Source of the DNA: Thermoplasmatota archaeon
Lineage (GTDB): Archaea > Thermoplasmatota > Penumbrarchaeia > JASLWR01
Assembly (NCBI GenBank): GCA_030740765.1
Contig: JASLWR010000012.1
Span: 1 to 64,000, forward strand
Direction of reading: 5' to 3'
Length of the DNA stretch: 64,000 nucleotides
Both the position numbers and the translations under genes were made by a program. Positions within the stretch are counted from its first letter, which is position 1. Every line of letters starts with the position of its first letter. The notes beneath the pieces were generated by a model that saw only the letters and a program-made list of their open reading frames with translations, was not told the origin of the DNA and did no database searches. Below, in pieces: positions 34,367-51,332 of the stretch.

Positions 34367-37300
34367 ATGGAAAATAAATCGGGAAATGGAACTAACGATG
34401 GCCCTGCACGCAGCCCTGAAATGAATCTTTATTTTTCACAATTGCAAGAGGACTGCAAGGCATGTTATACTGTTGCCAAGGAGGCCCGAGCCAAGGGCTT
34501 CGATCCGGAGATTGACGTAGAGATACCGCCAGCCGAAGACCTGGCTTCCAGAGTGGAAAACCTCGTTGGCCCGGTGGGAATTGCTCAAAAGATAAGGGAT
34601 ATGACGAAAAGCCAGTCGAGTCGTGAGATGGTGGCTATCCTCATTGCGAAGGATATTGTGAAAACAGGTGATTTCAGAACCAAGGACGAGGCCATGGATC
34701 AGGCAGTGAGGACCGGTCTCGCAATAATCACCGAGGGGGTCCTTGTGGCTCCATTGGAAGGGGTGAGCGAGGTATCAATCAGGCAGAATGACGACGGTTC
34801 GGACTATCTCAAGATCGGGTTTGCAGGTCCCATACGCTCTGCAGGGGGAACGGGACAGGCCGTGGGAGTATTGATCGCGGATGTGGTTCGCCGTGAAATG
34901 GGAATTGGCAGGTTCAAGGTCAGGAAAAATGAGATAGAGAGGTACAAGGAGGAGTTCCATCTCCGCAAAACCTCGCAATACAAGCCTAAGGACGAGGAGA
35001 TCGAGAATATCGTGAAGAACTGCGCCATATGCCTCGACGGGGATGGGACCGAGAAAAAAGAGGTTTCCGGCTATCGGAACCTGGAACGGGTCCAGACCAA
35101 CCAGGTTCGGGGCGGGCTGTGTCTCGTGATGGCGGAAGGGTTGTGCCAGAAAGCAAAAAAGATAAAGAAACTGGTGGACGCTCTTGGCATTGAAGGGTGG
35201 GATTTCATATCGAAGTTGATCAAGAAAGAAAAGAAAATAGAAAAAAAGGGGCCCACCACCATTTTCGATTACCAGCCTTCTCCCAAGACGAAATATCTAA
35301 GGGACGTTATTGCAGGTCGCCCCGTACTATCACTGCCAAGTGCGATCGGCGGTTTTCGGCTCAGGTACGGTAGAGGGCGGACATGCGGTCTGGCCGCAAT
35401 TGCCATACATCCGGCCTCCATGTTCGTTGCGGGTGAGTTCCTTGCGGTGGGGACCCAGGTAAAAATAGAATTTCCCGGCAAGGCCGGGGCCATCACTCCC
35501 TGCGATTCAATCGAAGGCCCAATAGTCGAGTTACATAATGGCTCCTTGATGCAGGTTTCCTCGGCGGACCAGGCAAAAGAGCTGAAGAAAAAGATCGCAC
35601 GTATCATAGATCTGGGCGAAGTGTTGATCCCTTTTGGTGAGTTTTCCGAGAACAATCATATCCTCATGCCCCCTTCATTTGCGAACGAATGGTGGCAGCA
35701 GCTTCTTGAAATAAAGTTGATGGAGGCGGGTGTCGGATCGGAAGATACTTCCGATATCTCACGTAGAATGCTGGATACGAATTTTTCAAATTCATATTTA
35801 TTGTCTAAGCATTATGGCATTCCGCTGAATCCTGCTTTCAACCTTTTCTATCACGATCTTCCCCCCGAAACACTGCATTTCCTGGGCGGTTTTATTTCAG
35901 AAAGGGGGACTATCATTGGCAGTTCTGATTTGCCGTCAACCATATTGCCTGACGCATCGGAACTTGAAAGAATGGCCGGTGAAACCGAGGAAAGCCTAAG
36001 GCTGGAGATCAAGACGGATGAGGGTGCCGGTAGTATAGCGGCAAAGGAGATATTATGCGTACTTGGCGCGCTCCATGAAACGCGAGAAAATACCATCATT
36101 CTTGCGAAATATGGTGAAGCGCTTACAAGATGTTTGGGATTGACTGTTGGTGAAAATGGCAAAATATCCAAATCCGATGAATGGGAATCTGTTTTTTCCG
36201 ATAATCAGGTCAAAATAGATGATGAGAAGGTGGTAGGAGAGTGGGGGCCGAAAAAGGAGATCAAGTACGAGGATGAATCTCATTACTTGAAGGTTAATGA
36301 TAACAAGTATTGGGGCGATACGCTGAAACTCATGGGGAGATTGTCCGGTATAGATATATATCCAAGGGCACCCACACGTGTGGGGGCGAGGATGGCACGC
36401 CCGGAGAAGGCCCACGAGAGGAAGATGAAACCGGCTGTCCATTGTCTCTTTCCACTGGGGGCAGCGGGAACTGACAGGCGTTCGTTGAAGAAGGCTAACG
36501 AGGTCCGCCGCTTCTCAGCGGATGTCGGCCGAAGGACCTGCCCCGAATGCGGCAAGTTCACCTTCAGATATATCTGCCCGGGCTGCAACACCCATACAAT
36601 CCACAAAGGTGAAGTGGTTATAGAAAAAAAAATACTGGATTTTTATACCATATACGGCGAGGCAAGGAAAAACATCGGCATGGGCTCGCCACCGGAGGCC
36701 AAGGGTGTCAAGGGATTGATGAGCAAATTCAAGACACCCGAGCCCCTGGAAAAGGGTTTACTTCGGGCCAAGAACGAGGTTTTTGTTTTCAAGGACGGTA
36801 CCATTCGGTTCGACATGACCGATGTTCCTCTCACCCATTTTCGGCCAAGGGAAATCCATACACCTTTTCAAAAGCTTCGGGAGCTGGGGTACACTCACGA
36901 TATGGATGGAAGGGAACTGGAGAGTGACGAGCAACTACTGGAGCTGAAGGTTCAGGATATTTTATGTTCCCGCAGGGGCATGGACTATTTTTTCAGGGCG
37001 ACACACTTCATAGACGAGCTCTTGGTGAGGTTCTACAAACTGCCGGCATTTTATAATCTCGAAAAGGCCGCCGACCTAGTGGGACATCTGGTAGTAGGTC
37101 TTGCGCCTCACACATCAGGGGGGGTACTTGGGAGAATAATCGGACACGGCAACGCTAGGGTGGGTTACGCACATCCCTTCTACCACGCGGCAAAAAGGAG
37201 AAACTGCCTATCCGGAGATACGAAGGTGTTGCTATCAGATGGCACTTCCTCAACTCTCAAAGGGTTGTTCGAAAACGCAGTAAGTTCTATCCGAGCGGTA

Positions 37301-39415
37301 GATGACGTTGGAACCGAGATGAAGGATATTACGGGACCTGAAGTTATAAGCATGGAACCTTCAGGAGGGCCGCTCCGAAGAGAGACAATAAAGAATGTGA
37401 TCAGAACTCCTTCACCGGATAACTGGATCGAGATCCGCACGAGGGGGGGCCGACATATAACCGCCTCGCCATATCACCAACTTTTCATCCATGATCATGA
37501 TAATACAAAGCTATCGAGAATGCGGGCACACTCAGTTAAGATCGGAGATTCACTTGTAGTTCCCGGCCATGTAGATATTGGTGTGGAGAATACGGACCGA
37601 ATAGACCTTTTCGATGTTTTGGTTAAAGCATCAGTGCCGGACGTCATGATCCGGAATACGGATGGATGGATGATAGAGACGATTATCGCAGCAGGCGGGT
37701 ACAAAGTTGTGGAAGATACTCTGGGAATGAAAGGAAAGGCTTTGACGAATTATGCATATCGAGACTCATATCCACTGGAGATCGCTGTGAGGATTGCTGC
37801 CCTTACCGGAAAGGATCTGGCCGATATGCCTCTGAGTGTGAAACTGGCTGCAAAGTGGGATACCGTGGAGATGAAACGTTTTATAGAGGTGAATAGTGAA
37901 TTCTGTCGTTTTTTAGGTTATTATATCGCAGAGGGATTCTGCCGGATATCCCGTGGTTCTTTCTATCAGATTGGCCTCTCAAGTAGTGAGAAGGATATAA
38001 GGGAGGATATTGTGCGCTGTATCAAAAGCGCATTCGGCATCAATCCCTCGCTGAGGGGGGATGTTATAACGCTCTCCGGGAGATTGATCGCTTTCCTCAT
38101 GCGGGATATTTGGAAGACGGGGAGTCGGGCTCTTGACAAACGCATACCCGAATCATTCAGACGCTTGCCTCTTAGCAAGATCGCACACTTGCTAGCAGCC
38201 TATATGGCCGGAGACGGTCACGTGGAGAAAGGCCGTCTAACGGTGAAAGCGACATCCGCTAATCTGAACCTACTGCGAGACATACAATTACAGCTAAAGA
38301 GATTCGGCATACATTCGAAATTCCGTCACGAAAGAAGACGTGGGGGTGGTGTGGTCAGGGAATTCTATGCATCCCGCGGGAAGATAACTCCCTTTTTCGA
38401 CAGCCATAGTCTCATCATCCGTTCCACGGATGCAAGGCTGTTCCACGATCTTGTGGGGATCGCGTCGAAGCGCAAAATGGATGCTCTAAAGGAAGTGCTT
38501 CCAAAGGAACGTGGGCGACGCGCCGGCAGGTTTGGAAAGCATTTTCTCGATCCAGTATCCGAGGTAAGGATGGTGGCCGCCAGGGATAAACATGTGTATG
38601 ATATTGAAGTGGCCAACACCCACTCATTCTTGACCGAGGACCTTCTAGTAACATCCAACTGTGATGGGGATGAAGATTGCCTCATGCTTCTTCTTGACGG
38701 GCTCCTGAACTTTTCAAAATCTTATCTGCCGGGTACCATCGGTGGCCAGATGGATGCACCACTGGTTCTCTCCACCAGATTGGACCCGTCGGAGATCGAC
38801 AAGGAAGCCCACAACATCGACGTTCTCAACAGATATCCGGTGGAATTCTTCGATGCCGCAGTACGGCAGGAAAGCCCGAAGGAGGTGGATGATATAATGG
38901 ATAAGGTGGCCGCGCGTATCTCCTTCCCTGCCCAGTACGAGGGTTTTGGGTTCACCCATGATACGAAGGATATATCGGAAGGGATTACCACCACTGCCTA
39001 CAAGACCCTGGGTTCCATGGACGCGAAGATAAATGGGCAGTTGAATCTTGCTACGAAGATCAGGGCCGTGAACGACTCATTCGTGGCGGCCAAGGTGATC
39101 GAATCGCATTTCATGCCCGATATGATGGGCAACATGAATGCCTTCTCCCGCCAGAAGATGAAATGCTCCGCCTGCGGGATGTCATTCAGGAGACCGCCGA
39201 TAAAGGGAGCCTGCCTGAGCTGCGGTTCGAAAAAACTCCATCTGACAGTGCACAGGGGAATGGTGGAAAAATATATCAAGACCTCAAAGAAGATAGCGGA
39301 AAGGTATGACCTCCCGGAATACACCGTCCAGAGGATCGAACTGATCGAAAAGGCAATGGAATCGCTTTTTAACAACGACAAGGTGAAGCAGACCGGCCTG
39401 TGGGATTTCTGTTGA
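34367..39415 (+). CDS. polC: DNA polymerase D large subunit DP2, with intein
   Basis: The catalytic subunit of the archaeal replicative polymerase PolD. The reading frame is 1682 codons because it contains an intein of 485 residues; the spliced protein would have about 1197 residues, a normal size. Conserved blocks include the N-terminal DP2 region, GPIRSAGGTGQA, the zinc site CPECGKFTFRYICPGC at about 725, and the catalytic block YHAAKRRN|CDGDEDC split by the intein, with the DxD aspartates right after the junction. A C-terminal zinc finger (CSACGMSF...CLSCG) follows. The protein ends KQTGLWDFC, which resembles a PCNA-interacting motif. A GGTGA site precedes the ATG. The small subunit gene is not in the window. 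Confidence 0.96.
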   Translation: MENKSGNGTNDGPARSPEMNLYFSQLQEDCKACYTVAKEARAKGFDPEIDVEIPPAEDLASRVENLVGPVGIAQKIRDMTKSQSSREMVAILIAKDIVKTGDFRTKDEAMDQAVRTGLAIITEGVLVAPLEGVSEVSIRQNDDGSDYLKIGFAGPIRSAGGTGQAVGVLIADVVRREMGIGRFKVRKNEIERYKEEFHLRKTSQYKPKDEEIENIVKNCAICLDGDGTEKKEVSGYRNLERVQTNQVRGGLCLVMAEGLCQKAKKIKKLVDALGIEGWDFISKLIKKEKKIEKKGPTTIFDYQPSPKTKYLRDVIAGRPVLSLPSAIGGFRLRYGRGRTCGLAAIAIHPASMFVAGEFLAVGTQVKIEFPGKAGAITPCDSIEGPIVELHNGSLMQVSSADQAKELKKKIARIIDLGEVLIPFGEFSENNHILMPPSFANEWWQQLLEIKLMEAGVGSEDTSDISRRMLDTNFSNSYLLSKHYGIPLNPAFNLFYHDLPPETLHFLGGFISERGTIIGSSDLPSTILPDASELERMAGETEESLRLEIKTDEGAGSIAAKEILCVLGALHETRENTIILAKYGEALTRCLGLTVGENGKISKSDEWESVFSDNQVKIDDEKVVGEWGPKKEIKYEDESHYLKVNDNKYWGDTLKLMGRLSGIDIYPRAPTRVGARMARPEKAHERKMKPAVHCLFPLGAAGTDRRSLKKANEVRRFSADVGRRTCPECGKFTFRYICPGCNTHTIHKGEVVIEKKILDFYTIYGEARKNIGMGSPPEAKGVKGLMSKFKTPEPLEKGLLRAKNEVFVFKDGTIRFDMTDVPLTHFRPREIHTPFQKLRELGYTHDMDGRELESDEQLLELKVQDILCSRRGMDYFFRATHFIDELLVRFYKLPAFYNLEKAADLVGHLVVGLAPHTSGGVLGRIIGHGNARVGYAHPFYHAAKRRNCLSGDTKVLLSDGTSSTLKGLFENAVSSIRAVDDVGTEMKDITGPEVISMEPSGGPLRRETIKNVIRTPSPDNWIEIRTRGGRHITASPYHQLFIHDHDNTKLSRMRAHSVKIGDSLVVPGHVDIGVENTDRIDLFDVLVKASVPDVMIRNTDGWMIETIIAAGGYKVVEDTLGMKGKALTNYAYRDSYPLEIAVRIAALTGKDLADMPLSVKLAAKWDTVEMKRFIEVNSEFCRFLGYYIAEGFCRISRGSFYQIGLSSSEKDIREDIVRCIKSAFGINPSLRGDVITLSGRLIAFLMRDIWKTGSRALDKRIPESFRRLPLSKIAHLLAAYMAGDGHVEKGRLTVKATSANLNLLRDIQLQLKRFGIHSKFRHERRRGGGVVREFYASRGKITPFFDSHSLIIRSTDARLFHDLVGIASKRKMDALKEVLPKERGRRAGRFGKHFLDPVSEVRMVAARDKHVYDIEVANTHSFLTEDLLVTSNCDGDEDCLMLLLDGLLNFSKSYLPGTIGGQMDAPLVLSTRLDPSEIDKEAHNIDVLNRYPVEFFDAAVRQESPKEVDDIMDKVAARISFPAQYEGFGFTHDTKDISEGITTTAYKTLGSMDAKINGQLNLATKIRAVNDSFVAAKVIESHFMPDMMGNMNAFSRQKMKCSACGMSFRRPPIKGACLSCGSKKLHLTVHRGMVEKYIKTSKKIAERYDLPEYTVQRIELIEKAMESLFNNDKVKQTGLWDFC
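37205..38659 (+). other. Intein in PolD DP2 with LAGLIDADG endonuclease
   Basis: A 485-residue intein lies between Asn946 and Cys of the DP2 catalytic motif. It begins with Cys (CLSGDTKVLLSDG, block A) and has block B at HITASPYHQL. Two LAGLIDADG-type motifs follow (FLGYYIAEGF and LLAAYMAGDGH), so the homing endonuclease looks intact. Block F is YDIEVANTHSFLTEDLLV, and the intein ends TSN before Cys+1. The penultimate residue, usually His, is Ser. This insertion point is a known one for DP2 inteins in other archaea. Confidence 0.93.
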
Positions 39416-41580: not shown

Positions 41581-41973
41581 CTTCGAGACTCGAACCGATA
41601 GAAATTTGGACCCTGATCATTGATTGCCTATGCAAATTTTCATTAGAGCAAACCAGTTGATAATACCCTGCTTTCGATTTCGGCTATACTTGGGAATAAT
41701 ATCACAATACCTATTGAACTTATCGCCGTTTACTCCTTCATCCCAATGTGAAATAGAGCAAAATAAAACCTGATTATCTCCTTTGGCAAAGATAATAAAT
41801 AGGATACTGTGGATTATAGAAGATTACATCATTACGAGAAAATGACGCCTATGCTAATATATGATTAATGAACGTTAGGATATTAAGGTCCGATTAGTAT
41901 ACAATTTTCCATTCTGGAAAACCGGCAAAAACATACAATATGAGCGACCCAACATTGTTATTGAGGTGAATTA
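41581..41973. other. Divergent promoter region for mutase and the giant gene
   Basis: I see no gene and no strong repeat. A TATA-like TAGTATACAA lies at about 41896-41905 before the giant gene, and a GAGGTGA site lies five bases before its ATG. Confidence 0.4.
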
Positions 41974-44900
41974 ATGGCGACAACCGGCCCCGCCAATAGG
42001 CTTTTGTCAATTATTCTGGTCTGTGTAATGTGCCTTTCCGGCATACCTCCCTTCATGGATTCCATGAACGAAGCAAGTGCAAGCAGGTCCAAGATACCTG
42101 GTCTGGACAGTGAGAACATCTTTTATCCTGTATGGAGCAATAAAACAGACTCAAATAGCACTCTGAGAGAAGAACCCAGAGACATTTTCACCACAACGAA
42201 CGTCAAAGATCTGGATAAAGATGGCCTCTCTGAGATAGTGGTCGGCGACGCAAGTGGGTGGTTCTACGTATACGAATACAACGGCACCGATAACAACTAT
42301 ACGGAAAAATATTCCAATGATACCGGCGGCTCCGTAATTCATACAGTGACTTGCGGCGATCTGGACGGCGATGGCGACATGGAGATAGTCACTGGGGGCG
42401 ATAACAACCAGATAAGGATATACGAATGGAATCAAAGCATCGGTAGCGATAATTACACCCTGGCAAATCTTAGCAATCTTGGGGGTGAGGTAAGAGACAT
42501 GGAAATAAGAGATTTGGATAATGATTTCAAAAATGAACTGGTAGTGGGGTGGGACCAGGGGGTTACAATCTACAGTTTCAACCAAACCTATCATTTCGCA
42601 ACGGAATTTCACTATGGAACCGGACACCCGATCTATTCCATTAGTACGGGTGACTATAACTCCAATATGAAAACGGACGTGGCCGCTGGCGAGCTTAACC
42701 ACAGCTCGATATACATTTTCGAGAACATTGCGTGGGACGTATATACCCAGGTGTTATTCCAACCCCTTCAAATGAACCCCGGCAATGCCAGTGGAAATGT
42801 TCTATGCCTTGAGACAGTGGATATAGATTCCGATGGAAAGGAAGAATTAATATCGGGTAGTGGCAGTGGCGAATTGAACCTCATAACAACGCCGAATATC
42901 TACGCAAATATCACATTCAGTCAGCTGGACAAATTGGGTAATGGTGAGATCTGGGATATTTTCTTCGAGGATGCAGACCTCGATAAGAGAAACGATATAT
43001 ACGTTGCAGCCGATCATAATTACAGCGTTTATGATTACGAATATGTTTCCGGTGATAAAGCCTTGCTGAAAAATTATGACAAGATGCTATTGTCCGGGCC
43101 ATTGGGATCGAACGCAGAACCCGCTCCCAGCTCCATATTCATCGCGGATCCCGACAACGACGGTAGAGGAGATGTGATCGTTGGATGTTTCGGTGACGCC
43201 AACGATTCCATGTTGTTCGTGCTTGAAAGGAACGTATTCAATGACGATGTTGAAGTTTCAGGAATAAATTTTCCAACAGATGGGGGAACTCTTCCCACAG
43301 GCTCGTATAACATAAACGCCACGGTGAGGAACCTGGGTACCAAACAGGAAGTCTTCGACGTGAACTGTTCCATTTACGACTCGAACTTGAATTTGATATA
43401 TGCATCCAATGAAATTGCCCTCCAGCTTTCCTCGGGTGAAAGTGCATACATTGACTTCGATTTTCCTCCATGGATTGCAAATACACAGGGGACGTATCAT
43501 ATCAATGTGACCACCCAACTACCAGCAGATGAGAACCGGTCAAACGATTATAGAAATATCACGATCAATATAACGGATATATACGATCTTTCTGTCGAAA
43601 GCGTGATTTTAAGCGGTTTGGCTCCATATGGCGAGGGGGAAAATATCTCTATAAACGCTTCTATACTCAATGTCGGGAACATGCAGGCCAATACCGTACC
43701 GGTTTATCTCATGATAAACAGTACCCAAGGGTATTACTACAACGATACGGACCAGACAATAAACCTTGGCCCTGGAAATTCAACGGATATTGCATTTACA
43801 CCGGCTTGGGCTCCACCCACAGAAGGGATATACACAGTGAACATTTCGATAATGTGGGACCTTGATCATAATATTACGAACAATTATTCGTACCAGCTCT
43901 TACCGGTGAAAAACATCATCGACATATCGGCCGAAATCAATAAACTGGTCAGTGGCTACTCAATCATTGATCCGCGGGACGGATTAGATATATTCAACAC
44001 GAATACCAGTCTCGTGGTGAACGGTACCGTGAAAAACCTTGGCAACAAAGAGGAGACCTTCAACGTTACTCTGAACATAACCGACGACAACGATACCAGT
44101 GTGTTTCTTAAAAATCGGGAACTTACCTTGGGAAAAGGCGAACTGGCAAATGTGGAGTTCGATAAATGGAACACCCAAAATATAAGTTACGCTAACTATA
44201 CGATCAACATTTCCGCAAGCGAGCCCGATGAGAATCAGGGAACGGACAACAACTATTCAACGAAACAAATCAGAGTCTGGGATATGTATGATCTGGGAGC
44301 GTCCGATATAAAATTGAATCGTTCAGTTCCGTTGAACACCAATATTTCCATTAACGTCAACGCCACAATAAAGAATACTGGCAACCTGAATCTTTCCAAT
44401 TATACAGTCCGACTGGAGATCCGGAATTCTACCGGAGTCCTCGATCAATCGGAATCCACATTAGTCGAAACTCGCTTGAACCGCAGTGAAACATACACTG
44501 CTTCCTACCAACTGAACACACCGCTAACCGAAGGATTTTTCACCATAAACGTTACGGTAATCTATGAAAATGACACTTACGGGCCGAATAATTTTACCAC
44601 TCTCACCATCAACGTGGACGACCTTCATGACATTGCAATGGATACTCTGACGTTCCAGGGCTTGAACGTTCAGGGTCATTATCCAACCGGTGTTCATTCT
44701 TTGGGAGCCACGACCCGAAATCTTGGAACCACGAAAGAATCCTTCGACGTTCGGATCAAGGTTGGCCATTCGAGCGGTAACAATTTAACACTTTTAAACG
44801 ATGATATGGAGAACGGTTCGGGTAGCTGGGAGCACATTTCTTTGGAAGGAGATGATCTATGGCACATGGTCAACTCCAGTAATTCGTTCCCGGGAAATCA

Positions 44901-47900
44901 CAGCAACGATACGAGTTGGTGGTTCGGTAGCGAGCAAACCGGTCATTACAATAATAGTACAAGGGCCATAATTTATCAAACAATAGACCTAGGTAACGCT
45001 TTCCACGCAAGTGTTGATTTCTGGATGAACCATTCATTCGAGAACGGAGATGATTACAGCCGTCTTGTCATCAACAACGACACCACTCTAGATCCCCGAA
45101 ACGCCACCTGGACCGAAATCGACGGACCCTATACGGGGAACTCTACCGGATGGTTATGGAAAGATATCAACATTTCATCATATGCCGGCCAGAAGATTCA
45201 GATCGGATTTTCCATCTATTCCGATGCCGATAATGCTGATTTCCGAGGTATTTATCTCGATGACGTGCGGGTTAATATCACCCAGACAGCATTTGACCAC
45301 CTAAATACGGTGAATAAGGATCTGGAGCCTAATGCCAGTGCACTTATTGCGGATGCCTATAATTTCGCCCAGGAAGCAGATTACCTAATAATATTCGAAT
45401 CCACCCTTCCCCGTGACGAGGTCGACGGGAACAATATAACAACTTGGAAATTGAATATCTTAAATTATCACGATATTGGTACCACGGAAACGGTGTTGAT
45501 ATCGAAACGAAACGAAGAAGTACGTTACTCCGCTTCTTTCGAAGACCCCAATGCTCCCCAATGGACTCACGGTGGCGTAAACGACGATTGGGCAAAGGGT
45601 TCTCCCGTATCGGGTCCAATGATGGGGCATTCTCCGGAAAACGTATGGGCCACTAACCTGCAAGGCAAATATTTACCCAACGCCTCCTCATGGCTTATGA
45701 CGCCATCCTTGATAAGAATCCCCTGGGGTTCTTCGGTAGAGTTCTGGATATGGTATTCCACAAATCTTTCGATGAACGATGTATTGAGCTTCCAAGTGTC
45801 GAACAATTCCGGAACCACGTGGACAACCATGAGGGAGTATACGGGCTCCACTCTGGCCTGGCAGAAAGAACAAGTCTCCTTGGGGGATTTCTACGGCAAC
45901 CTCTCATGCCGATTTTTCTTTTCCAGTGACGGTCAAGTCCAGGGGGACGGTTTTTATATCGACGATTTCAGGGCGATATCAACTGCCCCGTTCCACGTCG
46001 GAGAGACTTCTTCTTTCAACGTGACGATCCATAACTTCGGAAATGTCCCGGAAACCAATCCAGAATTGCTGATGTCTGTCACGAACACCGAGAACCAGTC
46101 CTACAAGTTCAGCGAAAAGAAGACAACTGTGGTTACGCTTCAACCTGGAGACAGTCATACGTTCGTCTGGAATTACCTACCTCCGGAGAACGGTACGTAC
46201 AGCGTCTTCTTTGACACAATACTTTCCACCGACCTCGACATGAATAATAACAGGAGTTTCGGCTCCGTAGTAGTATACAATCATACGGACATACAGGTAT
46301 TGGAAATATCCAAACCAACTGATGACAACGTATTCCGCCTGGGTGAAACCTTCGAAATAACTGCCTCGATATCAAACGAAGGTACGTGGGATTGGCAATC
46401 GGTTCCAGTGAGTTTCAACATCACTACAAATGTGAATGGCAGGGACATAGTGAAAAATCACACGGTTTATAAAATCACACTGTCAAGAAATGAAACAAGC
46501 AACGTGTCTCATAAATTCACCATCCCTTACATGCAAGGCGCCAGATATGATATCAGAGTGTCAGTACCCCTAAACAATACTCAGGATATGAATTTTGTAA
46601 ATAATGACAAAACAATTTTCGTTTATGGTCTATCTGTTGAAAAATCACCCGCTCTATTCGGGTACGTTACCTCGAAATTCGACGGAGAACCGATCAAGGG
46701 GGCAAGTGTTTCAAGGAAGATCGGGGACGATACGAGATTGACCGTGACAGATGTTAAGGGTTTCTACTGGTTCCAATTGGACAATTTCGGCAGCGTGGAA
46801 ATAAGGGTTGTCAGCGAGGGTTTCATCACCCTGACCACCACCGTTACCGCGGACCAAAACAAGAACCTGCGAAAGGATTTGGCTCTTGAAGTGGCCAATT
46901 ATGCACCCACCGTCAGCATAGTTGACACCCCGGAATTTGCCATCGTTGGTGAAACGGTGACCTTCGACGTTGCATTCGGTGACCTGGACATTGGACAAGA
47001 TCACTTCTTCAACATTTCATCCAATATTTCAGGTAATATCGATGTTGGCGGTGGAATGAACCTCGGCACCAGTTCATTCTCTTTTAACAGCTCCCAACTT
47101 GAAACGGGCGTCCACCGTATATTCGTAAACGTTTCCGATCTTTACAGCAAATCATCTACAAGCGCTGTGCTGGTCATATATGGATTGAGAAGCATTGACG
47201 AGAGCGCCGGTTTCCCGCTATCTGTCTGGCTGGAGGGCGAATTCGGAGGAAGTGGGGATGTGCTTCTTCAGTATAATGATACAAAACCTGATCATTGTGC
47301 AAATATTTCAAATGATCTAGCCGTGGTGGGAGGATTCGCAACGGTTAATATGACCGGACAGGGACGGATCAAATGGACCCGGATATTATTCAAATACTCC
47401 GAAAGTTCACTTCCACCGGGAAGCTATCAAGAGGATCTGGGATTATATTATTACGATGACAACAATGAAAAATGGATAAAACTTAATGCTTCGGTTATCG
47501 ACACTGGAAATAACAGTATATTCGTAAATCAATCCAACACCCCATCGTACGGGATTTATACGCTTCTCGTAAAACGAGACCTCACAGAACCAACCATCAC
47601 AGGCGTTGAGCCACAAGATGGAGCCGGTGATGTGGACGTTGCTACGAATTACACTATCGGCTTTTCCGAACTTATCGATCACACTACGATCGAGGGCTCA
47701 ATCACGGTTCTTGATAGCGGCAATAACGAGATAGAATTCGATATAAAGGTGGTGGATGACACCAGGAACCAAACCACCAATGTAACGCTGGATTTCACAG
47801 AGTCACTGGACTATCTCAGAGGATACACTGTCAATATCAGCAGTAATCTCAGCGATCTTGCAGGCAATATCTTAGAGGCGATCTCTTTCAAGTTCATCAC

Positions 47901-50715
47901 AATTAAGGCCCCTGTCAGTACCGGGACACTCCTGGTTGAGGTGAGGAATGAGAACAACGGACCGATCAAGAACGCTTTGATAGGGATCGACGCTATTTTT
48001 TACATTTCATCCACGGGGGATTTGAACAAGAAGCTTAAACCGGGCATCCATACCGTGGAAGTGAAGGGCAAATTATACAGTGGAATCCGATACGAGGGAT
48101 ACCTGGGAGAGGTAGAAGTTAAACTGAATGAGACCATAACTCACCGGATCACACTTCAAGAATGGGTAGAACCGCCACCCCCTGTGCCGTGGGGCGTCCT
48201 TGTGGGCAACGTGACCGACGAGAACGGTCTTCCTCTTTCGGGAACCGAGTTAATAATCAAGTGGCTGAACAAGACAATCCAAAATATCCCCGTTGGGAAC
48301 GATACAAACAACTCCAACAATGTAAATAACACCAACAATACAAACAATACAAACAACAATAACAACACCAACGAGACCGTAAAGACCGTCGAGAGTATTG
48401 AATTTGTCAGCGAATATTTCACAACTATCATCACCCCAAACGGCTCGTTCTACATAATACTCGTTCCCGGCAATTACACCATAACTTTCGAATCAATAGG
48501 GTATCAAGCTCAGACCGTGGAGATTAACATATCAGGGGGGGACGAGAGAACCTGGCTGAATGTGACACTCATAAAGAAGATCGAATACGGTTATCTCGTT
48601 TTTACGGTGGTGGATTCAAAGGGCGAAGCGTTGACAGGGATGCTTGTGGAACTCCAGGGTGAAGTGAATGACACGGTATTCGAGCTTTACGAGGACGAGG
48701 GGGAACCTGGGAAGTACCGTTCCATCAATTTACCCGAGGGAATCTACTTATTAAAGGTGTGGGCAGACAGATATGAAGAATACAATGCACGAGTGGGAAT
48801 CACCACCGGCGAGGATGGCAAGATGAATGATATTGGGAACATAGAGATGTGGAAAAATATTGAGATTCACCCTCCGCCAATAAATAATGAGGCCGATCCG
48901 TTCATGTTGATTGGCATTATTATTCTCGCAGTTCTTGTGTTACTCATCGTTGTCTTGATTTTAGTTAAACGATCAAAGGAAAAACAGATGCTGATGGACA
49001 AGGATAAAAGGCCCATACTTTGGCTGGATGAGATCAGTCTCGAGGATGTTGCCCTTATAGGTAATAAGGCAGCATACCTCGGCGAGCTCACTTCAAAGAC
49101 TGGCGTTCCCGTACCCGTGGGCTTCACCACCACCCGGGCAGCATTCGAAATGTTCATGTCCGGGGAAGTCCTTTCAGAAAAATTGAATGAAAAGATCGCG
49201 AAATTCGAGGATCCGGAAGACGTGGAATTACTGGGAACGATAGGGAAACAATGCCGTTATGCCATCCTCAAGACCGACCTGAGTCCCGCATTTGAAAAGG
49301 CCGTAGGTTTATTCTATGATGAACTGGTGGTGAAGTACAGAGAAATGCAGGGAAAAACCGCAGAAGAAGCTGAGGACGAAGCTGAGGAAGAACCATATCT
49401 GGCAGTTCGTTTATCCGTTGACGAGGAAAAGCTGCCCCATGAGCTCTTCGCTGCCGGTCAGAAGTCATATCTCAATATTCGGGGACTGGAAAGTGTTCTG
49501 GAGAGAATCAAAGAATGTTATTCATTGACATTTACAGACGAAGCGATACTGCACAGGCGGCTCGAAGAGATAGATCACACGACCGAGGGAATTTCAATAA
49601 TCGTGCAATTGATGGTGTTCTCAAAGGGAGCGGGAACCATGTGTACCCTTGATGCCTCGGGTGGTAACAGGGACCTTATGTCAATCAAAGCTGCTTACGG
49701 ATTGGGGGAGTATGTTGTGGAAGAGAAGGTCACGCCTCATTCCTACCTTGTAAACAAGGACAGTGTGGAAATCGAGGAAAGGAAGATCACACCCTTGGGT
49801 ATTATGCTGACCCGTAGCTCGGAAGGCGGTGTCGAGGAGGTACCCGTATCGCCGGATGACTTCGAAAAAGAGCTTCTCTCGGACGAACAGGTCGCGGAAC
49901 TGGCTACTTTAGGTAAGGAGATGGAGACTCATTTCGAAAAGCATATGGAAATGGAATGGGCGTTGGACGAGAGGGACGGTATGCTTTGGATGATCAATGC
50001 GCGACCCGAGGTATATTGGTCCTCGAAACCGCAGGAAACCGAGGAGCAGGTGGAATTCACCTGCCCGGACTGCGGAGAGACCGTGGAAGAAAAGGAAACG
50101 TTCTGTGATTCTTGTGGTGCTGATTTCGAAGCTCCCGAGCGAACTGTAGTGGAGAAAGTGGTTGAACGCAGGGAGGAGGAGTTCCTCTGTCCCGAATGCG
50201 GCAAAACTGTGGCTGAAGAGGCGAAAAAATGCGATTCCTGTGATGCCGATTTCGAAACACCCATAACGCGTAAGACCGAAGAAATCACAGAAGATGAGAT
50301 GGTAGAAGAAGAACCTTTGGAACCTGAAACCATCACGGAAGAGGATATCGAGGACATTGACCTTGGAGATCTGGAGGAGGAAACCGGGGAAGATATCTCA
50401 TTTGACATTGACGACCTTGACGACCTTGACGATGATGTATCCCTGAGTGCTCTGGATATGATGGTCTCAAGAATGCTTGGCGAAGAAGAGGGAGAACCTG
50501 AAACCCCTGAGGAAGAGCCTCCTGACGAACCCGACGAACAGCCAGTCCCCGCAGATGAGACGGAGGCCCCCGAGGAAGAGGATATGATGACCCTGGATGA
50601 CCTGGACCTTGACGAAATAGAGATAGAGGGCGATGACGATATGGACCTCGATATCGATCTTGATGACATATCCATAGAAGACCTGGAGATGAGCCTGGAC
50701 GAGCTGGGAGAATAA
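41974..50715 (+). CDS. Giant surface protein with cytoplasmic PEP-synthase/PPDK-type ATP-binding domain and zinc ribbons
   Basis: One unbroken frame of 2913 residues. A signal peptide (about 8-27) is followed by seven FG-GAP/VCBS motifs (such as DLDKDGLSEIVVGD and DLDGDGDMEIVTGG; about 70-415), as in a seven-bladed propeller. CARDB-like beta domains (about 420-940, 1340-1560) and two jelly-roll modules (about 940-1105, 1187-1340) come next. Then follow a carboxypeptidase-regulatory-like domain (about 1560), a Big_5 domain (about 1873-1975), and more regulatory-like domains around an Asn/Thr linker. Asn-X-Ser/Thr sites are very frequent. A transmembrane helix lies at about 2310-2332. The cytoplasmic part begins with a PPDK_N-like domain (about 2346-2685): IGNKAAYLGEL, VPVPVGF, LPHELFAAGQKSYLNIRG, and YGLGEYVVEEKVTPHSYLV. 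Two CxxC-CxxC zinc ribbons and a 150-residue acidic tail follow. The swivelling His domain and PEP-binding domain of true PEP synthase are absent. Confidence 0.85.
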   Translation: MATTGPANRLLSIILVCVMCLSGIPPFMDSMNEASASRSKIPGLDSENIFYPVWSNKTDSNSTLREEPRDIFTTTNVKDLDKDGLSEIVVGDASGWFYVYEYNGTDNNYTEKYSNDTGGSVIHTVTCGDLDGDGDMEIVTGGDNNQIRIYEWNQSIGSDNYTLANLSNLGGEVRDMEIRDLDNDFKNELVVGWDQGVTIYSFNQTYHFATEFHYGTGHPIYSISTGDYNSNMKTDVAAGELNHSSIYIFENIAWDVYTQVLFQPLQMNPGNASGNVLCLETVDIDSDGKEELISGSGSGELNLITTPNIYANITFSQLDKLGNGEIWDIFFEDADLDKRNDIYVAADHNYSVYDYEYVSGDKALLKNYDKMLLSGPLGSNAEPAPSSIFIADPDNDGRGDVIVGCFGDANDSMLFVLERNVFNDDVEVSGINFPTDGGTLPTGSYNINATVRNLGTKQEVFDVNCSIYDSNLNLIYASNEIALQLSSGESAYIDFDFPPWIANTQGTYHINVTTQLPADENRSNDYRNITINITDIYDLSVESVILSGLAPYGEGENISINASILNVGNMQANTVPVYLMINSTQGYYYNDTDQTINLGPGNSTDIAFTPAWAPPTEGIYTVNISIMWDLDHNITNNYSYQLLPVKNIIDISAEINKLVSGYSIIDPRDGLDIFNTNTSLVVNGTVKNLGNKEETFNVTLNITDDNDTSVFLKNRELTLGKGELANVEFDKWNTQNISYANYTINISASEPDENQGTDNNYSTKQIRVWDMYDLGASDIKLNRSVPLNTNISINVNATIKNTGNLNLSNYTVRLEIRNSTGVLDQSESTLVETRLNRSETYTASYQLNTPLTEGFFTINVTVIYENDTYGPNNFTTLTINVDDLHDIAMDTLTFQGLNVQGHYPTGVHSLGATTRNLGTTKESFDVRIKVGHSSGNNLTLLNDDMENGSGSWEHISLEGDDLWHMVNSSNSFPGNHSNDTSWWFGSEQTGHYNNSTRAIIYQTIDLGNAFHASVDFWMNHSFENGDDYSRLVINNDTTLDPRNATWTEIDGPYTGNSTGWLWKDINISSYAGQKIQIGFSIYSDADNADFRGIYLDDVRVNITQTAFDHLNTVNKDLEPNASALIADAYNFAQEADYLIIFESTLPRDEVDGNNITTWKLNILNYHDIGTTETVLISKRNEEVRYSASFEDPNAPQWTHGGVNDDWAKGSPVSGPMMGHSPENVWATNLQGKYLPNASSWLMTPSLIRIPWGSSVEFWIWYSTNLSMNDVLSFQVSNNSGTTWTTMREYTGSTLAWQKEQVSLGDFYGNLSCRFFFSSDGQVQGDGFYIDDFRAISTAPFHVGETSSFNVTIHNFGNVPETNPELLMSVTNTENQSYKFSEKKTTVVTLQPGDSHTFVWNYLPPENGTYSVFFDTILSTDLDMNNNRSFGSVVVYNHTDIQVLEISKPTDDNVFRLGETFEITASISNEGTWDWQSVPVSFNITTNVNGRDIVKNHTVYKITLSRNETSNVSHKFTIPYMQGARYDIRVSVPLNNTQDMNFVNNDKTIFVYGLSVEKSPALFGYVTSKFDGEPIKGASVSRKIGDDTRLTVTDVKGFYWFQLDNFGSVEIRVVSEGFITLTTTVTADQNKNLRKDLALEVANYAPTVSIVDTPEFAIVGETVTFDVAFGDLDIGQDHFFNISSNISGNIDVGGGMNLGTSSFSFNSSQLETGVHRIFVNVSDLYSKSSTSAVLVIYGLRSIDESAGFPLSVWLEGEFGGSGDVLLQYNDTKPDHCANISNDLAVVGGFATVNMTGQGRIKWTRILFKYSESSLPPGSYQEDLGLYYYDDNNEKWIKLNASVIDTGNNSIFVNQSNTPSYGIYTLLVKRDLTEPTITGVEPQDGAGDVDVATNYTIGFSELIDHTTIEGSITVLDSGNNEIEFDIKVVDDTRNQTTNVTLDFTESLDYLRGYTVNISSNLSDLAGNILEAISFKFITIKAPVSTGTLLVEVRNENNGPIKNALIGIDAIFYISSTGDLNKKLKPGIHTVEVKGKLYSGIRYEGYLGEVEVKLNETITHRITLQEWVEPPPPVPWGVLVGNVTDENGLPLSGTELIIKWLNKTIQNIPVGNDTNNSNNVNNTNNTNNTNNNNNTNETVKTVESIEFVSEYFTTIITPNGSFYIILVPGNYTITFESIGYQAQTVEINISGGDERTWLNVTLIKKIEYGYLVFTVVDSKGEALTGMLVELQGEVNDTVFELYEDEGEPGKYRSINLPEGIYLLKVWADRYEEYNARVGITTGEDGKMNDIGNIEMWKNIEIHPPPINNEADPFMLIGIIILAVLVLLIVVLILVKRSKEKQMLMDKDKRPILWLDEISLEDVALIGNKAAYLGELTSKTGVPVPVGFTTTRAAFEMFMSGEVLSEKLNEKIAKFEDPEDVELLGTIGKQCRYAILKTDLSPAFEKAVGLFYDELVVKYREMQGKTAEEAEDEAEEEPYLAVRLSVDEEKLPHELFAAGQKSYLNIRGLESVLERIKECYSLTFTDEAILHRRLEEIDHTTEGISIIVQLMVFSKGAGTMCTLDASGGNRDLMSIKAAYGLGEYVVEEKVTPHSYLVNKDSVEIEERKITPLGIMLTRSSEGGVEEVPVSPDDFEKELLSDEQVAELATLGKEMETHFEKHMEMEWALDERDGMLWMINARPEVYWSSKPQETEEQVEFTCPDCGETVEEKETFCDSCGADFEAPERTVVEKVVERREEEFLCPECGKTVAEEAKKCDSCDADFETPITRKTEEITEDEMVEEEPLEPETITEEDIEDIDLGDLEEETGEDISFDIDDLDDLDDDVSLSALDMMVSRMLGEEEGEPETPEEEPPDEPDEQPVPADETEAPEEEDMMTLDDLDLDEIEIEGDDDMDLDIDLDDISIEDLEMSLDELGE

Positions 50716-50720
50716 TATTC

Positions 50721-51332
50721 CTACGCATCAACATTGGTCAATTTATAGAGATTTGCCTGCCGGTGCATCTCCAGAGCATACTCGATGTGTCCAACTAACT
50801 CGTTCTTCGGTGTTTTCCCGACAATCTCCCCGTAGAAGGGTTTTACCACGCCGTCACTATCTTTATTCAAGGTAATTATAATAAAGGTCGGCGCCTCATG
50901 TAATTCACCATTCAGAAAATCATATATGCCCCACGCCCTGTACATCTCATCATCCTCTCCCCAGTATGCTAAAAAGAACTCGACCTCGTCCTCGTATTCA
51001 CTTTCGATATCCTCGATGACTGGCAGCATCTCGTCACAAGCCACGCATCCGTATTTTAGAGAAAAGTCAATAAAAACCACTTTTTCTTCCATCTCGTCGA
51101 GAATCCAATCGGGATGATCCGCTCCGTTTGCAGTCTGAAATCGGAATTCTACATTGCTCACAGGTGTCAATCCCAGACATGAAAGGCATTTTGGAATAGA
51201 AATCTCTTCATTGTAACCATAGCCCCCCAGTGCGATCCCACTTATCATCAAGGCCAACGTTACCGTAGCTAGGATCAATTGAGGTAGTCTTCTTTTGGAA
51301 GCATCTCCGGCCTTTTCAGGTTGTATTTCCAT
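50721..51332 (-). CDS. Membrane-anchored thioredoxin-like protein
   Basis: A 203-residue protein with one N-terminal membrane helix (LPQLILATVTLALMISGIALGGY) and an outward-facing thioredoxin fold. The redox motif is CVAC in KYGCVACDEMLPVIEDI, followed by the cis-proline region EAPTFIII. A second pair, CLSC, lies just after the membrane helix (SIPKCLSCLGL). Two CxxC pairs could pass electrons between each other, as in exported thiol-disulfide proteins. A GGGAGA site precedes the ATG. The gene converges with the giant surface-protein gene, five bases away; a role in folding surface proteins is only a guess. Confidence 0.8.
   Translation of the reverse strand: MEIQPEKAGDASKRRLPQLILATVTLALMISGIALGGYGYNEEISIPKCLSCLGLTPVSNVEFRFQTANGADHPDWILDEMEEKVVFIDFSLKYGCVACDEMLPVIEDIESEYEDEVEFFLAYWGEDDEMYRAWGIYDFLNGELHEAPTFIIITLNKDSDGVVKPFYGEIVGKTPKNELVGHIEYALEMHRQANLYKLTNVDA

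Follow-up and report, generated by a model that had tools for sequence, protein, structure and literature searches.

The gene at positions 41974 to 50715 (+) of the 64,000-nucleotide stretch of Thermoplasmatota DNA analyzed here, hereafter the window, encodes a real and unusual protein of 2913 residues, a giant surface protein whose inner end carries what is most likely a captured and functionally altered ATP-grasp domain. This domain is of the PPDK_N type found in PEP synthase, a sugar-making enzyme, and as an enzyme it looks impaired.

As the initial annotation had claimed, the large protein is encoded by one unbroken frame, with uniform codon usage along the gene, and direct reading of the sequence places a ribosome-binding-site-like GAGGTGA (41963 to 41969, +) four bases 5' of its ATG. 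The FG-GAP, CARDB, Big_5, PPDK_N and zinc-ribbon domains named at that stage were all matched by Pfam, which added an InhA-like MAM domain and CarboxypepD_reg, for a full tally of PPDK_N, Zn_ribbon_3 (twice), FG-GAP_3, CARDB (five times), CarboxypepD_reg (three times), Big_5 and InhA-like MAM. All features of the gene are on the forward strand. The signal peptide region (aa 1-36, 41974 to 42081), with a hydrophobic stretch at aa 6-31, is followed by the FG-GAP propeller (aa 75-420, 42196 to 43233; FG-GAP_3 E=3e-17), whose calcium-binding-like motifs, counted at aa 79, 129, 180, 227, 283, 333 and 392, number seven as previously stated. A CARDB array with two MAM/jelly-roll-like domains comes next (aa about 430-1545, 43261 to 46608); its edges were set by eye, and the evidence for it consists of five Pfam CARDB stretches, the InhA-like_MAM match, and paralogous stretches on contigs C150 and C72. 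The best of the three CarboxypepD_reg stretches (aa 1561-1638, 46654 to 46887; E=2e-24) and the Big_5 domain (aa 1870-1976, 47581 to 47901; E=6e-14) precede a transmembrane helix (aa 2310-2331, 48901 to 48966). After the helix lie the PPDK_N, PEP-synthase-type ATP-grasp domain (aa 2346-2692, 49009 to 50049), two CxxC-CxxC zinc ribbons (aa 2694-2760, 50053 to 50253; Pfam Zn_ribbon_3 and DZR) and an acidic tail (aa 2761-2913, 50254 to 50712), which is composed of 47% D+E and 2% K+R and has similar counterparts in paralogues.

The genes on either side lie on the opposite strand: one encodes a methylmalonyl-CoA mutase, and the other (50721 to 51332, -) is a convergent gene that ends five bases past the stop of the large gene and encodes a 203-aa protein with a membrane-like start, a CVAC thioredoxin-like motif and no Pfam match. 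Elsewhere in the window, a 1682-aa frame (34367 to 39415, +) resembles, by eye only, the large subunit of archaeal DNA polymerase D, with an intein-like insert (NCLSGDTKVLL ... HSFLTEDLLVTSN), also recognized only by eye.

The large protein has one strong transmembrane helix, at about residues 2310-2331 (peak Kyte-Doolittle value of 3.8), followed on its inner side by KRSKEK. The 2256 residues N-terminal of this helix hold 106 N-x-S/T sequons, against a shuffled expectation of 38 ± 5, whereas the 588 residues C-terminal of it hold none, and therefore the N-terminal part is placed outside and the C-terminal part inside. All eight zinc-ribbon cysteines are C-terminal of the helix. The features of a type-I single-pass protein are present, namely, a signal peptide, a glycosylatable ectodomain, one C-terminal helix and positive charges inside, and the identification of the large protein as an outside-N, inside-C surface protein of this type is well supported. 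The topology first proposed, from ectodomain through helix to cytoplasmic PPDK_N domain, is thus upheld by the sequon asymmetry and by the helix with its KRSKEK.

The PPDK_N assignment was confirmed by Pfam at aa 2360-2691 (E=4.5e-72; 243.5 bits, against a cut-off of 27), in a match that covers positions 2-321 of the 328 in the profile. The NCBIfam PEP synthase models also matched (E about 1e-77), over the PPDK_N part only and far under their whole-protein cut-offs. Among solved structures in the PDB, PEP synthases and RPH come closest to the domain in sequence. An AlphaFold model (mean pLDDT of 86.5, mostly 90+ over the PPDK_N domain) predicts an intact two-lobe ATP-grasp fold, with HpeI (9goj; E=3.4e-28) as top PDB fold match and the PEP synthase of N. 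meningitidis (2ols) and the ATP domain of RPH (5hv6; TM of 0.90 when normalised by target) as further matches. The ATP-grasp fold of the domain is thus supported by structure prediction.

The edges of the domain coincide with natural domain boundaries of PEP synthase: its start, KRPILWLDEISLEDVALIGNKAAYLGEL, mirrors the N-terminus of PEP synthase, and its end, NARPEVYWSSK, mirrors QARPETVWS. In a phylogenetic tree it falls inside the PEP synthases, joined to a Bacillota clade (SH-aLRT of 99), on a branch of length 1.9 against a median near 0.3, that is, 6-7 times the median, and its top identities among the sequences found are 41-43%. A constrained tree, in which it was grouped with a clade of Thermoplasmatota (f29) and Nanoarchaeota, was not rejected (p-AU of 0.28). 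From these sequence comparisons, the domain appears to descend from a PEP synthase and is placed best with Bacillota homologues, and an archaeal origin stays compatible with the data.

PEP synthase (PpsA; TIGR01418, PF01326-PF00391-PF02896) has swivelling His and PEP-binding domains, and the large protein lacks both; it also differs from PpsA in its many altered conserved residues at the ATP site and loop and in its attachment to a membrane surface protein. The absence of the mobile His and PEP domains, already remarked upon in the initial annotation, is borne out by Pfam, which finds only PPDK_N among the PEP synthase domains in the large protein. Each of PF00391 and PF02896 occurs at one genomic site, and both lie in a PEP synthase of 1140 aa on contig C140; no free or stand-alone His carrier (PF00391) was found outside this protein in the 94% complete assembly, nor was a partner gene combining a His swivel with a substrate domain, as in a dikinase. 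At that level of completeness, the assembly could lack a carrier partner that the organism has. Within the genome, the three domains of PEP synthase occur together only in the C140 protein (L077:2675-6094), a very divergent, long version, with a branch of 3.6-4.3. A standard ppsA was not found in the source genome; relatives of families f3 and f4, of the same class, have one.

Our second GTDB scan used canonical loop motifs as its seed and is blind to sequences with an altered loop, so that conservation counts on its hits are circular at the loop positions. Conservation was recounted on 29 PEP synthases from a whole-domain search, in which the loop was not used as bait, and 69 positions were at least 90% conserved among these relatives. 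The PPDK_N domain deviates at 25 of the 69, as against at most 8 in any of the 29 PEP synthases, and this clear outlier status strengthens the earlier suspicion that its activity may be altered. The replacement of RSSATAEDLP by RLSVDEEKLP, on which that suspicion was based, is real and is seen in the translation. Indeed, the loop at 2480-2495, conserved in PEP synthases, is rewritten here, the changes in this region including S2480L, A2482V, T2483D, D2486K, A2490E, S2491L and G2494A, and those beyond it T2498S, R2523E, F2557C, G2584E, D2659E and Q2675N. The GLGE motif and residues K2365, R2479, S2481, E2579, E2661 and R2677 are kept, which retains the ATP-phosphate-holding lysine and arginine and one glutamate of the Mg site.

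These residues can be compared with those of RPH, whose ATP domain in RPH-Lm (5hv6) has the same fold, and whose K22, R117, T136 and E297 correspond, by motif position, to K2365, R2479, S2498 and E2661. The equivalent lysine, arginine and glutamate are kept in the large protein, and T136 is replaced by serine; RPH also differs in having its own His swivel and drug-binding domain. In RPH, K22 is essential, its K22A mutation abolishing activity; the R117A and T136V mutants still cleave ATP but lose the second transfer; and E297 is dispensable, E297A being tolerated (PMC4844700). The loop at 2480-2495 belongs to a strand-loop-strand motif; in HpeI, and in RPH with ADP bound, the loop of this motif is disordered (PMC12167813). 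The 2480-2495 loop may be the part that contacts the carrier His domain. As judged from sequence, the set of changes suggests that phosphotransfer has been lost and that nucleotide binding may have been kept. However, Q2675N, D2659E and the loop changes are expected to line the nucleotide site, and nucleotide binding may be lost too, because several of the altered residues would fall there.

The architecture of the large protein, which had seemed striking as a whole, proved to be so only in part. A whole-genome search with the cytoplasmic part found further large frames whose zinc ribbons and acidic tails resemble those of the large protein, the frames on contigs C84 and C136 being 44% and 46% identical to the large protein in the tail. 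In at least nine other single-pass proteins of the organism, zinc ribbons follow the membrane helix close to the C-terminus, and the same helix and zinc-ribbon build occurs in two genomes of the same class (G006:C250 and G004:C13). The proteins on C84, C136, C66, C71, C68, C85 and C44 of the source genome (G000) together with G006:C250 and G004:C13, share with the large protein a large ectodomain, one C-terminal helix, zinc ribbons after it and, often, an acidic tail. Unlike the large protein, the zinc-ribbon surface proteins scanned have no PPDK_N or other recognised cytoplasmic enzyme domain, and in ten zinc-ribbon tails Pfam found no enzyme domain, only zinc-ribbon-type families. The ectodomain has a paralogue on C150, whose inner tail is of a very different kind. 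In this organism, many surface proteins share the zinc ribbons and acidic tail as a cytoplasmic module, and what is unusual in the large protein is only its PPDK_N insertion. The proteins are modular, and the domain fills a slot flanked by two native modules. Single-pass zinc-ribbon proteins were also noted as a lineage-wide set (L068, L070, L071, L075, L080, L081, L062 (-), L066 and L067), and several of their tails terminate with an acidic-hydrophobic motif (DDFDSLLEGLEDEL, DDLDNMLDDLLENL or DDELDELEDL) that could be a common docking peptide.

These paralogues bear on whether the fusion is genuine, as do its rarity and the bacterial affinity of the domain. An assembly or binning artefact, in which a ppsA fragment became joined in frame to a surface-protein gene, would agree with the failure to find a fusion orthologue and with bacterial sequences being the nearest to the domain. 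However, what follows the domain, zinc ribbons and tail, is 44-46% identical to native paralogues, so that an artefact would need two independent in-frame joins. Moreover, the GC3 of the PPDK_N segment (0.557) lies within the range of the other segments of the gene (0.46-0.57) and its codon preference matches the genes of the window; and since the nearest sequences found are only 41-43% identical, the domain is no loose fragment of a known ppsA. Uniform codon usage and the other single-pass proteins with post-helix zinc ribbons make misassembly unlikely on sequence grounds, and we regard the artefact as a whole as very improbable.

As to rarity, pattern scans of GTDB r220 and IMG/VR, which reach close relatives only, returned no relative of the cytoplasmic part, and no other large fused frame was present among the best matches listed in 97 relatives, 12 genomes of the class and 390 of the phylum. 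The longest other frame among those matches, of 1167 aa in G027, was rejected as a fusion: it ends like an ordinary PEP synthase and lies on a GC-rich contig with long overlapping frames. The exact domain combination was thus not found in the other genomes searched, and the fusion, as a matter of sequence records, is known from one draft assembly; literature searches on PPDK_N fusions, archaeal zinc-ribbon surface proteins and PPDK active-site mutants yielded nothing usable. A second protein of the source genome (C158:9741-10859, L003; 1053 aa) also has PPDK_N without a His or PEP domain and, unlike the large protein, lacks a membrane-protein ectodomain. It keeps the RSS, LQIRP and GGK motifs, so its ATP-site motifs look canonical, and it has a receiver-like, weak Response_reg match under the family cut-off. 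Because of this protein, the large protein is not alone in having a PPDK_N without its partner domains in what may be a regulatory role, and, with lone PPDK_N occurring twice in the genome, it is the membrane fusion that stands out. In a Helarchaeota genome (L196, G395:C3:551500-556000), a 326-aa frame with a PPDK_N-like match, present besides a full PEP synthase, is possibly a stand-alone PPDK_N domain.

For the large protein, which is of the modular kind native to the organism and has a complete PEP-synthase-type ATP-grasp domain between helix and zinc ribbons, we tentatively favor the reading that this domain was captured and altered and serves as a nucleotide-binding or scaffolding module and not as a working phosphotransferase. 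The domain would have been captured from a ppsA gene, with loss of its phosphocarrier partner and quick divergence thereafter. It would still fold, would probably bind ATP or ADP via K2365, R2479, S2498 and E2661, and would no longer hand phosphate to a histidine. As a nucleotide-responsive clamp or docking module, at the cytoplasmic end of a sensor or adhesin, it might open and close with nucleotide and so alter the binding partners of the zinc ribbons and acidic tail, a clamp action that we infer by analogy with the closing of the ATP-grasp domains of PPDK and RPH. It is somewhat unlikely, on the other hand, that the captured domain is an inert passenger that binds no nucleotide and provides a folded spacer, or a protein-interaction surface, between membrane and zinc ribbons. 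The long branch, the departures at 25 of 69 conserved positions, among them the Q and D of the ATP site, and the sister proteins of the same build that do without PPDK_N would all fit such a passenger, but free drift is not expected to spare K2365, R2479, E2661 and the GLGE motif selectively, and confidence in the predicted fold is high.

The opposite reading, that of an active split kinase, is a little less probable still. HpeI, CreI and PpsB are ATP-grasp subunits of two-component small-molecule dikinases, paired with a His-domain subunit, and in HpeHI, CreHI and PpsAB such lone PPDK_N polypeptides are active partners (PMC12167813). Like them, the large protein has a PPDK_N-type domain without a His carrier on the same polypeptide and might, in response to an outside signal, phosphorylate a carrier histidine on a second protein; HpeI being the top fold match and the retention of the ATP lysine and arginine speak for this. 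Yet the loop motif of HpeI, CreI and PpsB resembles that of PEP synthase (PMC12167813), whereas the domain of the large protein has a changed loop, is fused to a membrane protein and has no partner in sight: the sole PEP-utilizers mobile domain in the assembly lies inside the resident PEP synthase, and no partner gene is adjacent, the two opposite-strand neighbors being the methylmalonyl-CoA mutase gene and that of the protein without a Pfam match. Position 2498 is also changed from threonine, and its RPH counterpart is needed for the transfer reaction (PMC4844700). Thus, of the signalling or phosphotransfer device that the initial annotation had suggested, the phosphotransferase is not supported, as no His carrier was found in the assembly outside the resident PEP synthase and the conserved loop is rewritten, and a signalling role is possible. 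More speculative, and improbable at present, is a transmembrane device in one protein, in which an outside ligand controls the inner PEP-synthase-derived ATP-grasp domain, which would give archaea a type of receptor that relies on no histidine or Ser/Thr kinase.

For the annotation of genomes, this case warns that PPDK_N alone does not make a PEP synthase. The large protein has an ATP-binding domain of a central-metabolic enzyme relocated to the cytoplasmic face of the membrane and joined to a huge ectodomain, and it shows that the zinc-ribbon and acidic part on the inner side of this lineage's surface proteins can accommodate an entire additional domain. Should the domain bind nucleotide, energy-sensing adhesion in archaea would have a candidate in the large protein.
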